DNA of 64,000 nucleotides from Porphyromonas pogonae (GTDB lineage: Bacteria > Bacteroidota > Bacteroidia > Bacteroidales > Porphyromonadaceae): assembly GCF_036320655.1 (NCBI RefSeq), contig NZ_CP143258.1, positions 2,108,001 to 2,172,000 on the forward strand, written 5' to 3'. Shown in pieces: positions 52,215 to 55,806 of this stretch; the stretch's first letter is position 1, and every line of letters starts with the position of its first letter. The notes beneath the pieces were generated by a model that was given only the letters and a program-made list of their open reading frames with translations, was not told the origin of the DNA and ran no database searches. The position numbers and the translations under genes are program-made.

Positions 52215-54236
52215 TTACTTGATAGAACTCAATAGTTTGGCAAGAGAATCCTTGGCATCACCAAGATATAAATATACACCCTGTGCTCTAGTATAAAGAG
52301 GATTCTCCACCCCGGCATAACCCGGTTTGAGATCAAAATTACATATAAATATGTTGGGAGCTTGATCTACATTGAGTACAGGCATACCATAAATAGGAGT
52401 GCCTTCGGCATCGCGGGCTGCAGGGTTGAGTACATCATTGGCTCCAATAACCACAACAACATCGGCAGAAGCAAATTCATTATTGATGGAATCCATCTCG
52501 TATAATTGTTCATAGGGAACATCTGCTTCGCAAAGCAATACATTCATATGTCCCGGCATACGGCCGGCAACAGGATGAATAGCATATTTGACTTCAGCAC
52601 CATTGGTCATAAATTGATCTGCAAGCATACGTACTTGATGCTGAGCTTGCGCAAGAGCCATTCCATACCCCGGCACAATGATAACCTTACGAGCACTTTT
52701 GAGCACCTCAGAGGTGTTATGTTCAGCTTTTGTGCCTATAGCATTGTCACTCTCTCCACTAGTCTTTGCATCAGGAGTATGTACATCATCAAATTCGTGG
52801 AGCAATTTTGTCAAAGATTCCTTTGCATCGCCCAGAAGCAGGTGCACACCTTCTTCCTTGGAATAAAGAGGATTCTCTACGCCGGCATATCCCGGCTTGA
52901 GATCGAAGTTGCAGATTATAATCTCCGGAGCTTGATCTACATTGAGTACAGGCATACCGTAAATAGGAGTTCCTTCAGCATCTCGAGCTGCAGGATTGAG
53001 AACATCATTGGCTCCAATTACTATCACAATATCTGCTTTGGCAAAATCATCATTAATAGCATCCATTTCATAGAGTTGCTCATAAGGGACATCGGCCTCA
53101 CAAAGCAACACATTCATATGCCCAGGCATACGGCCTGCAACAGGATGAATAGCATATTTGACGTCAGCCCCATTTTCACTGAGCTTATCCGCCAATTGAC
53201 GTACCTGATGCTGAGCTTGTGCAAGAGCCATACCATAACCCGGTACAATAATTACATTTTTAGCTGAACGAAGAATCTCACCGCAAGACTTTTGTTTGGC
53301 AACAGGTTGTACCTCTTCATCCTTTACCAGCATTTGTGACTCAGCCATAGGCTTTACCTCTGGTGCTTTTGATCGATCATTTTTCATCGATTGCGCTGCT
53401 GCGCCTCCCATAAGGATACTTGCAAGACTGCGATTCATAGCACGACACATGATCTGTGTAAGTAGTAAGCCAGATGCTCCAACAATGCCTCCCACAGCAA
53501 CTAAAAGGATATCGTTAATAGCGAGTCCTGCTATAGCCCCAGCCAGACCGCTCAATGAATTGAGAAGAGATATAGTAATAGGCATGTCTGCTCCTCCAAC
53601 ACGAATAGAAAAGAATAATCCGAACATGGCAGAGAAAGCAACACTACCCAATACAATCATCAACACAGCATACCCGGGGATAATATTGATAGTACCCAAT
53701 ACAATAAATACAACGGCTATGAGCAAAAACATATTTGTCCAGAGTGAATGATTGGGCCAAATAACAGGTTTCTGTGGGATCAGCTTATGCAATTTCCCCC
53801 CGGCTACAAGGCTACCCACCAAAGTCACTGTTCCCACAACGATAGCCAGCATAGCTGTGCATTTGGTAAACACCGGATAGGCATTTTCAGTCAACGGGTT
53901 GAGTCCTATACCTTCTATGGAAAGAATACCCACCAAAGCCGAAGCTCCTCCGCCAATACCGTTTAGTAAGGCTACCAGTTGTGGCATCTGTATCATCTTT
54001 ACCTTAGCTGCTATGAAACCACCTATCAAAGCTCCAATAAGCATAAATAGGTAAATCCAATAGATAGGAAATATATTATTGTAAGCCAGAGTAACCAATA
54101 CACCTCCAAGCATTGCAAATGCACTGAGCTTATTTCCCAAGATAGCGGTTTTCACACGGCTCATCATAGAAATCCCCAGTAAAACCAAAATGGCCAGGAA
54201 CGAACAAATGATGTAATATAAAGTAGTACTCATCAT
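52215..54236 (-). CDS. pntB: NAD(P) transhydrogenase subunit beta with duplicated NADP-binding domain
   Basis: 673 residues; E. coli PntB has 462. Residues 1-280 are the membrane domain (about 8-9 helices; NGIGGGASALVG, GGADMPITISLLNSLSG). Two copies of the NADP(H)-binding domain III follow, about 316-480 and 507-671, offset by 190 residues. Each has VPGYGMALAQAQHQV, HPVAGRMPGHMNVLL, GANDVLNPAARD and KPGYAGVENPLY, so both look functional. The linker between them is Ser/Glu/Asp-rich. The enzyme couples proton entry to NADPH formation. Part of pntAA-pntAB-pntB; the start overlaps the pntAB stop. Confidence 0.93.
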   Translation of the reverse strand: MMSTTLYYIICSFLAILVLLGISMMSRVKTAILGNKLSAFAMLGGVLVTLAYNNIFPIYWIYLFMLIGALIGGFIAAKVKMIQMPQLVALLNGIGGGASALVGILSIEGIGLNPLTENAYPVFTKCTAMLAIVVGTVTLVGSLVAGGKLHKLIPQKPVIWPNHSLWTNMFLLIAVVFIVLGTINIIPGYAVLMIVLGSVAFSAMFGLFFSIRVGGADMPITISLLNSLSGLAGAIAGLAINDILLVAVGGIVGASGLLLTQIMCRAMNRSLASILMGGAAAQSMKNDRSKAPEVKPMAESQMLVKDEEVQPVAKQKSCGEILRSAKNVIIVPGYGMALAQAQHQVRQLADKLSENGADVKYAIHPVAGRMPGHMNVLLCEADVPYEQLYEMDAINDDFAKADIVIVIGANDVLNPAARDAEGTPIYGMPVLNVDQAPEIIICNFDLKPGYAGVENPLYSKEEGVHLLLGDAKESLTKLLHEFDDVHTPDAKTSGESDNAIGTKAEHNTSEVLKSARKVIIVPGYGMALAQAQHQVRMLADQFMTNGAEVKYAIHPVAGRMPGHMNVLLCEADVPYEQLYEMDSINNEFASADVVVVIGANDVLNPAARDAEGTPIYGMPVLNVDQAPNIFICNFDLKPGYAGVENPLYTRAQGVYLYLGDAKDSLAKLLSSIK
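52224..52718 (-). repeat. pntB domain III, second copy (coding repeat)
   Basis: Encodes residues 507-671. It aligns with the 52797-53291 copy over its whole length; about 16 residues differ in some 128 aligned between VPGYG and ENPLY by eye count, with many silent third-base changes, so the duplication is not recent. Confidence 0.88.
52797..53291 (-). repeat. pntB domain III, first copy (coding repeat)
   Basis: Encodes residues 316-480, the position where a single domain III is found in ordinary PntB. Partner of the 52224-52718 copy. Confidence 0.88.
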
Positions 54237-54544
54237 GCTCCTCCTTTCTTTTTCTTATTGAACATACGCAGCATGCGGTGAGTAACTCCAAAACCACCTA
54301 CTACATTCACCGTAGCCATGATTATGGCCAATCCACCCAGGATCTTGCCCGTAAGCAAATCTCCACTATTATCAAACATGACACAAAGCCCTGTCGCAGC
54401 TATTGCTCCCACCAAAGTTACTCCTGACAAAGCATTCATACCCGACATTAGCGGCGTATGTAAGAGACTTGGAACATTCTTGATAAGAAAATACCCTACA
54501 ATGGTAGAGACTATCAAAATAAGTATTAGTAATATCGGACTCAT
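54233..54544 (-). CDS. pntAB: NAD(P) transhydrogenase alpha subunit, membrane part (PntAB)
   Basis: 103 residues from ATG 54544 (MSPILLILILIVSTIVGYF); an ATG at 54592 would add 16 polar residues not typical of the family. Three helices and VPSLLHTPLMSGMNALSG and VVGGFGVTHRMLRMF mark the N-terminal membrane part of domain II. In this phylum the alpha subunit is split into two genes, as here. Its stop overlaps the pntB start by 4 bases. Confidence 0.9.
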   Translation of the reverse strand: MSPILLILILIVSTIVGYFLIKNVPSLLHTPLMSGMNALSGVTLVGAIAATGLCVMFDNSGDLLTGKILGGLAIIMATVNVVGGFGVTHRMLRMFNKKKKGGA

Positions 54545-54648
54545 AATCTTATAATCGTTAATATTTTTAAGCTGAAGAGCCAAAGATGTCATGTTGCGGC
54601 ACCTTTGGCTCTAAATTCATAAATACAATATTAAAGCCTTCTTCACGA

Positions 54649-55806
54649 TTACAATCCCATTGCTTCCCGTGTGCCGGCATGCAGGATTTCACCGCCTTTG
54701 GTTACAAGGCTCTTACTGATGACTTCGTCGTTCATATCCAAAGAGACTTGACCATCTTTTACAAGATATTTGACAAGATTGTACATGTTCTGTGAGAACA
54801 TCCAAGTAGAGCTCTTTGGCAACATTCCGGGGATATTTTTGATACCTTCAATGATAACGCCATGCTTAGTCTCTTTAGCTCCAGCAGGAGTAATAGCACA
54901 GTTACCTCCTTGGTCAATTGATATATCCACAATCACAGAACCACGCTTCATTCCTTTCACCATCTCTTCAGTGATGATAATAGGAGCAATCTTACCGGGG
55001 ATCAATGCACTCAAAAATACAATATCCATATCTTGGATAGTAGCCTTCAACGCTTCACGCTCTTTGAGTAATACCTCTTCAGGTAATTTGTTTGCATATC
55101 CACCATCGGCAATAGCCAGTTCAGCAGGAACACCCGTCTCAACTATTTTTGCACCGAGACTCTTAGCTTGTTCTGCTGCTGCAGGCCTTATATCAGCAGC
55201 ATAAGTAACCGCTCCCAAACGCTTGGCTGTGGCTAAAGCTTGCAAACCCGCAACACCTACACCGATAACCATAACTTTGGCCGGCTGTATCATTCCCACA
55301 GCAGTTCCCATCATAGGAATGAACGTAGAGAGATCATTAGCTGCCATAAGGATACCTTTGTATCCAGCACAAGTACTCATTGAGGTGAGAGCATCAAGAT
55401 TTTGAGCACGGGAAATACGAGGAATGCCATCCAATGTAATGGAAATTACGCCACGTGCCGCAAGCTTCTTTACCATTTCATGATTGATAGGAGAAGCCGG
55501 GTGTATAAATGTAATCAGGTATTGTCCCTGACGCATCATATCCACTTCGTGCATGCCCAATTGTTCATTGTACAGAGGCTCCTTTACTTTCAATATCATG
55601 TCTGCTCCGTCATAAATAGCCTTAGCGCCATCCACAAGTTGGGCGCCGGCCTTTTCGTATTCTTCATCATGATACTGGGCACCTTCGCCTGCACCTTTTT
55701 CAAAAAGGACTTTAAATCCGTCTGAAACAAATTTGGCAACGGTCTCAGGACTTGCCGCTACACGAGCTTCGTCGTGCATAATCTCCTTTGGAACACCGAT
55801 AATCAT
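54649..55806 (-). CDS. pntAA: NAD(P) transhydrogenase alpha subunit, NAD-binding part (PntAA)
   Basis: 385 residues; domain I of the transhydrogenase. MIIGVPKEIMHDEARVA start, alanine-dehydrogenase-like fold, NAD site VMVIGVGVAGLQALATAKRLGA, GKIAPIIITEEMV and IDQGGNCAITPAG. Binds NAD(H) and passes hydride to domain III on PntB. With two domain III copies on PntB its pairing could be altered. First gene of the three-gene operon. Confidence 0.95.
   Translation of the reverse strand: MIIGVPKEIMHDEARVAASPETVAKFVSDGFKVLFEKGAGEGAQYHDEEYEKAGAQLVDGAKAIYDGADMILKVKEPLYNEQLGMHEVDMMRQGQYLITFIHPASPINHEMVKKLAARGVISITLDGIPRISRAQNLDALTSMSTCAGYKGILMAANDLSTFIPMMGTAVGMIQPAKVMVIGVGVAGLQALATAKRLGAVTYAADIRPAAAEQAKSLGAKIVETGVPAELAIADGGYANKLPEEVLLKEREALKATIQDMDIVFLSALIPGKIAPIIITEEMVKGMKRGSVIVDISIDQGGNCAITPAGAKETKHGVIIEGIKNIPGMLPKSSTWMFSQNMYNLVKYLVKDGQVSLDMNDEVISKSLVTKGGEILHAGTREAMGL

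Follow-up and report, generated by a model that had tools for sequence, protein, structure and literature searches.

The window analysed here, a stretch of 64,000 nucleotides from Porphyromonas pogonae (contig NZ_CP143258.1, positions 2,108,001 to 2,172,000), carries a three-gene transhydrogenase set, pntAA, pntAB and pntB, whose closest described relatives are the enzymes of Thermus thermophilus and E. coli. In the known enzyme, domain III (dIII) alternates between domain I and domain II. The two dIII of the canonical dimer point in opposite directions, and when a domain I dimer takes up dIII, the first is bound with a Kd of <60 nM and the second with a Kd of about 10 micromolar (PMC5742237). 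From this tight and weak binding and the opposite facing of the two domains, we take dIII to be the moving part.

The T. thermophilus transhydrogenase is likewise encoded as PntAA-PntAB-PntB (PF02233) and shares with the window the gene set, domains I and II, the dIII motifs, the Asp-Arg pair of domain II, and both the Asp-x-Arg and the R-x-Q-x-x-D motifs of domain I. However, it has one dIII where the window has two, K-R-G where the window has N-F-D, and a channel histidine on PntAB where the window has Ser. E. coli PntAB is homologous throughout and provides the best solved match to the window PntB (E 2e-95), but its domain I lies on one chain with the first membrane helices, its dIII is single, and it contains both the KRS motif and His91. 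The KRS motif of the NADP(H) site corresponds to K424-R425-S426 in E. coli (PMC9529548). Tandem whole nth genes and inverted fusions have been described in apicomplexans (PMC7614955), an arrangement that differs from tandem dIII within one PntB.

Two tandem copies of domain III in one PntB

The window pntB gene is a single 673-aa open reading frame (ORF) with no internal stop, and its product contains two copies of dIII where the classical enzyme has one per protomer. The parts of the gene are as follows:

52215..54236, minus strand: pntB, 673 aa, transmembrane domain II and two tandem dIII (ORF, PF02233)
53391..54236, minus strand: domain II part of PntB (residues 1-282), with D217 and R269
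53289..53390, minus strand: linker from domain II to dIII copy 1 (residues 283-316)
52791..53288, minus strand: dIII copy 1 (residues 317-482)
52902..52910, minus strand: N443-F444-D445 replacing the KRS motif, copy 1
52719..52790, minus strand: inter-domain linker (residues 483-506)
52218..52718, minus strand: dIII copy 2 (residues 507-673)
52332..52340, minus strand: N633-F634-D635 replacing the KRS motif, copy 2

A profile search with PF02233 (PNTB) matches the protein with an E-value of 5.2e-237 and 787.6 bits, against a curated cut-off of 31.7. The best stretch runs from residue 11 to residue 480 and takes in profile positions 5-455 of 456. A second stretch is matched besides it, and solved dIII structures, for example 1e3t (residues 497-668), also match copy 2. 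The score against the NCBIfam equivalog for subunit beta (NF006974) lies below its cut-off (563.8 bits vs 689). The repeat has an offset of 570 nt, or 190 aa, and local alignment of the two copies gives 134 identical residues out of 160 without gaps, with a score of 720 compared to a maximum of 58 among 1000 shuffles. The tandem repeat proposed in the initial annotation of this DNA, offset included, is thus present in one intact ORF. The same annotation described the coding differences as mainly silent, and this is borne out by the 160 codons compared, of which 79 are identical, 55 contain only silent differences and 26 encode a different residue (dN 0.130 and dS 1.37, Nei-Gojobori method, NG86). 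The motifs GYGMA, HPVAGRMPG, IGANDVLNPAA and GYAGVEN are present in both copies. The source genome is a single contig of 2,916,423 bases containing one PntB match.

Replacement of the KRS motif by Asn-x-Asp

Related loci were collected on the basis of similarity to the window protein, to its dIII or to PF02233, starting from the best matches, and form a non-random sample. They yielded 192 distinct PntB proteins: 110 from the lineage of the window (Bacteroidales and Bacillota) and 82 that retain the Lys-Arg of the KRS motif (KR-type). Distinctness was judged by dIII sets, which gave 193 proteins (82 KR-type and 111 of the lineage) before the frame-shifted L012, counted as single, was excluded.

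At the position of the KRS motif both window copies have N-F-D. The motif comparison covered 213 dIII of the lineage and 34 canonical dIII, 31 of them from the loci and three from solved structures, the latter being the only KR-type segments from outside the Bacteroidia and Bacillota. The canonical domains have K in 34/34 and R in 34/34, followed by S in 32 and G in two. In the lineage the first residue is N in 213/213, the middle residue is Y, F or L in 212/213 (R in one), and the third is D in 212/213, with one unreadable X. Over 243 loci, full dIII read NYD (139), NFD (97), NLD (44), NRD (3), NMD (1) and NYX (1) in the lineage, and KRS (63) or KRG (28) in the KR-type. With repeated loci included, GYGx[AC] and HPVAGRxPG are found in 240/240 lineage dIII and GAxDxxNxA in 232/240.

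The claim that nucleotide-binding motifs are kept in both copies therefore holds for the four motifs named above and fails for KRS. The further claim that both domains bind NADP(H) is not supported as stated, with N-F-D standing in place of the KRS residues in each copy and N-x-D throughout the lineage as sampled. For this PntB, the label "two NADP(H)-binding domains" is doubtful. As a rule, a preference for NAD(H) goes with an acidic residue close to the adenosine ribose, and a preference for NADP(H) with basic residues. The change from Lys-Arg-Ser to Asn-x-Asp resembles this rule, and we infer that the nucleotide preference of dIII is probably relaxed or changed, perhaps shifted towards NAD(H).

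There is an appreciable, though lesser, chance that dIII instead binds NADP(H) normally, holding the 2'-phosphate through other residues, and that the enzyme is an ordinary transhydrogenase in function. The coupled reaction thermodynamically needs two different couples, and in domain I the Asp of the Asp-x-Arg site, which marks an NAD(H) site under the Rossmann-fold rule, is kept together with the Arg in 106/106 lineage members (alignment column). The largely intact remainder of the dIII motifs is also consistent with normal binding. However, the lineage-specific dIII positions listed include no new conserved Lys or Arg, and an Asp has become fixed in the motif. A specificity swap in domain I that would offset the change in dIII is not seen at the site examined, Asp-x-Arg; domain I does have further lineage-specific positions.

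The genes for domain I and the rest of domain II are adjacent to pntB on the same strand, with pntAB and pntAA upstream of pntB:

54233..54592, minus strand: pntAB, 119 aa, remaining transmembrane helices of domain II
54649..55806, minus strand: pntAA, 385 aa, domain I (NAD(H)-type), D-I-R kept

Beyond these three genes no neighbour is conserved in more than 12 of 74 clustered stretches, and the largest neighbour set around the pnt genes (12/74 stretches) sits on the opposite strand. The R-x-Q-x-x-D motif of domain I is found in 102/106 lineage members (pattern search). The Asp-Arg pair at the exit of domain II is conserved in the lineage (D in 108/108, R in 104/108) and complete in the window, where D217 and R269 are the equivalents of E. 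coli D213 and R265. The channel histidine sites (beta His91 and alpha2 His42) are occupied by Asn and Ser in the window, and histidine is absent at both known positions in 106/107 lineage members. Loss of the channel histidine was weighed as a mark of the lineage and is weakened as such, because 8/31 KR-type relatives share it. Other histidines are conserved in the lineage, at domain II 163 (107/108), domain II 150 (94/108) and PntAB 45 (107/107). The KR-type relatives without histidine at both channel positions (L127, L131-L136 and L138, in the class) have histidine at domain II 163-164 and PntAB 45 (window numbering) as well.

A more far-reaching proposal, which we offer tentatively and consider rather unlikely, is that the lineage represents a separate energy-coupling enzyme and not an NAD(P) transhydrogenase. 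In this case, the multiplied dIII would carry NAD(H) or another dinucleotide without a 2'-phosphate and would exchange hydride with NAD(H) on domain I, in an enzyme whose channel lacks the known histidine.

Copy number and conservation across the lineage

The same layout was sought in relatives and is found there, even with three and four copies. The 110 distinct lineage proteins contain one, two, three or four dIII in 42, 35, 27 and 6 cases, respectively (two or more in 68/110), whereas all 82 distinct KR-type proteins have a single dIII. Counted by locus over the 243 loci, several of which repeat one gene, complete ORFs (3' end within the locus and no partial dIII seen) have a single dIII in 91/91 KR-type cases and one, two, three or four copies in 43, 42, 35 and 9 N-x-D-type cases; eight N-x-D ORFs that are cut or partial, eight without a full dIII and one with an unreadable motif were set aside. 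The relatives include many short-read metagenome-assembled genomes (MAGs), and single-copy counts may be inflated because near-identical tandem copies can collapse in such assemblies.

A match was found in 36 of the 61 genomes around that of the window (window included). Within the family of the window, ORFs judged intact have two to four dIII in 16/16 cases (window included): two in the window, G017, G028 and G035; three in G002, G007, G013, G018, G021, G025, G027 and G036; and four in G024, G029, G030 and G031, where the fourth copy of G030 and G031 extends beyond the stretch analysed and was read together with the open-frame length. Loci cut by contig ends, the frame-shifted L012, L021 and L026, and the N-holding ORFs L022 and L024 were excluded from these 16. 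Five genomes of the same genus (G004, G008, G012, G015 and G022) and one of the same family (G034) gave no PntB match. Four same-genus loci have dIII sequences identical to those of named Porphyromonas records (pairs L003/L039, L011/L041, L010/L045 and L009/L107).

More widely, PF02233 matches 170/247 Bacteroidia genomes. With the second dIII as query, matches were obtained in 75/295 genomes of the order, 11/291 genomes of the class of relative L052, 34/299 genomes of the phylum of relative L110 and 187/295 genomes of the class of Hoylesella marshii. When one genome per species was scanned, 309 related stretches emerged; among the best 80, which were analysed, are records of Petrimonas, Dysgonomonas, Parabacteroides and the Prevotella type, as well as many from the Bacillota. 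Two Bacillota genomes, G875 and G1022, have six and five dIII matches, some of them truncated and in shifted frames, and these are either decayed arrays or assembly errors. An apparently separate dIII gene in L097 was ruled out as an assembly join, with unresolved bases and a second domain II piece at that place.

In the domain II tree (128 rows, of which the KR-type was thinned to 21), the KR-type and N-x-D-type are split by one change with a support of 100. Parsimony on this quick tree requires at least 33 changes in copy number within the N-x-D lineage, and when only the strongly supported branches are counted, 11, 11, 9 and 3 changes are required for states one to four, respectively. All trees are quick or FastTree trees with long branches flagged. 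The complete Petrimonas genome L031, with two dIII, and the MAG L074, with one, have nearly identical domain II sequences; the difference reflects either a recent change in copy number or a repeat collapsed in assembly.

Between species, dN/dS per dIII copy position is 0.00-0.09 in 10/11 species pairs (NG86); the eleventh is saturated, and NG86 saturates for L003/L009. Most of these values do not exceed that of domain II; the exceptions are both copies in L042/L043 and one copy each in L006/L019 and L078/L083. Each tested copy position is under strong purifying selection, in agreement with the initial annotation, which regarded both copies as maintained. Gene conversion can inflate apparent conservation, and the ratios consequently argue strongly, though not conclusively, that each copy matters. 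A pseudogene copy is ruled out, given the motifs in both window copies and the purifying selection on the tested positions.

It is possible, though we think it improbable, that the extra dIII are a neutral by-product of recombination, with the repeat expanding and contracting and one dIII doing all the work. The frequent changes in copy number (fewer when only strongly supported branches are counted), the L031/L074 pair and the 42 single-copy members all favour such a process. It is harder to reconcile with the conservation of the tested positions, part of which gene conversion could mimic, with the presence of two or more copies in every family ORF judged intact, and with the lack of any multi-copy case among the 82 KR-type proteins.

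In a tree of 197 dIII, the nearest relative is a copy of the same protein for 98 of the 162 copies from multi-copy proteins, and in the Bacteroidales most copies have their closest relative within the same protein. In L002 (G025, a single-contig genome), three dIII copies are 98-100% identical at the nucleotide level over 85 codons, as a result of recent expansion or gene conversion. Same-protein nearest copies and near-identical sets fit interchangeable copies that are homogenised or re-expanded by recombination, and it is from these patterns that we infer interchangeability.

Specialised copies, one for hydride transfer with domain I and the other docking on domain II or regulating, are an unlikely alternative for the lineage. 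First and last copies do group apart across species, with different loop sequences, in L072, L076, L077, L078, L081, L083, L091, L092 and L110, and within-protein dN/dS in the three of these proteins that were compared (0.22-0.37) exceeds the between-species values; but the mutual nearest relationship of most Bacteroidales copies, and the identical motif set of the two window copies, argue against a division of roles. Some related contigs do show breaks, frame shifts or N inside the repeat, but an assembly artefact is ruled out: the window copies differ at 81/160 codons, their genome is a single contig, and the layout recurs in the single-contig genomes G025, G021 and G031 and in a complete Petrimonas genome.

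Proposed working and significance

The reading that we prefer, in which we place evenly balanced confidence, is that of a divergent transhydrogenase lineage whose dIII are multiplied, interchangeable and swing on flexible linkers, and whose dIII pocket no longer selects for the 2'-phosphate, its preference relaxed or changed. The dIII copies would take turns between domain I, for hydride transfer, and domain II, at the proton channel, so that one tethered dIII could load or unload nucleotide while another is docked and reacts. Judged from sequence, alternation of two dIII per subunit is plausible. The inter-domain linkers are rich in Ala, Pro, Ser, Thr, Glu and Lys and vary freely.

Several dIII could thus serve one enzyme much as tandem lipoyl domains serve one active site in dihydrolipoyl acyltransferase (E2). 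The lipoyl domains of E2 have flexible linkers and a swinging role, but their fold is unrelated to that of dIII, their cofactor is covalent and their complex is soluble. The likeness is an analogy of working and not of kinship, and it extends to the layout, with a varying number of carrier domains per chain (PMC8421416).

Several observations weigh against this reading of interchangeable, altered carriers. The single dIII of 42/110 distinct lineage members implies that one copy suffices in many species. Of the 162 dIII copies, 64 are most closely related to a copy in a different protein, and copies 1 and 2 of one Bacillota group fall into old groups according to their position, which speaks against full interchangeability. 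Finally, if an enzyme coupled to the proton-motive force carried NAD(H) at both sites, no net reaction would result. This disfavours a complete switch to NAD(H), unless something else differs, and leaves relaxed selectivity, a different dinucleotide or a new hold on NADP(H) as candidates.

The Prevotella-type branch (L073, L085, L087, L088, L090, L093, L097, L102, L109 and L040) has nearly all single dIII. Its linker from domain II to the first dIII is 58-82 aa long, with a heptad-like stretch, for example RVMDLEKKIKELEEIVKNLEGRVKVL in L073. This stretch resembles a coiled coil, through which the two dIII of a dimer could be paired.

No report of a repeated dIII or of a KRS-less lineage was found in the open-access literature, which was represented mostly by titles and the beginnings of abstracts, with subscription papers largely uncovered. 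Genes annotated as transhydrogenase are upregulated 2.26- to 2.43-fold in P. gingivalis biofilm (PMC5378342). The N-x-D lineage is little noticed.

The movement of dIII between the hydride site and the proton channel is a central open question of transhydrogenase. With its natural series of one to four dIII, a single lineage makes it possible to ask directly whether the cycle is limited by dIII supply, by docking order or by alternation. As for KRS, its fixed loss calls into question the automatic annotation "NAD(P) transhydrogenase" in many anaerobes, as well as models of NADPH production in those organisms.
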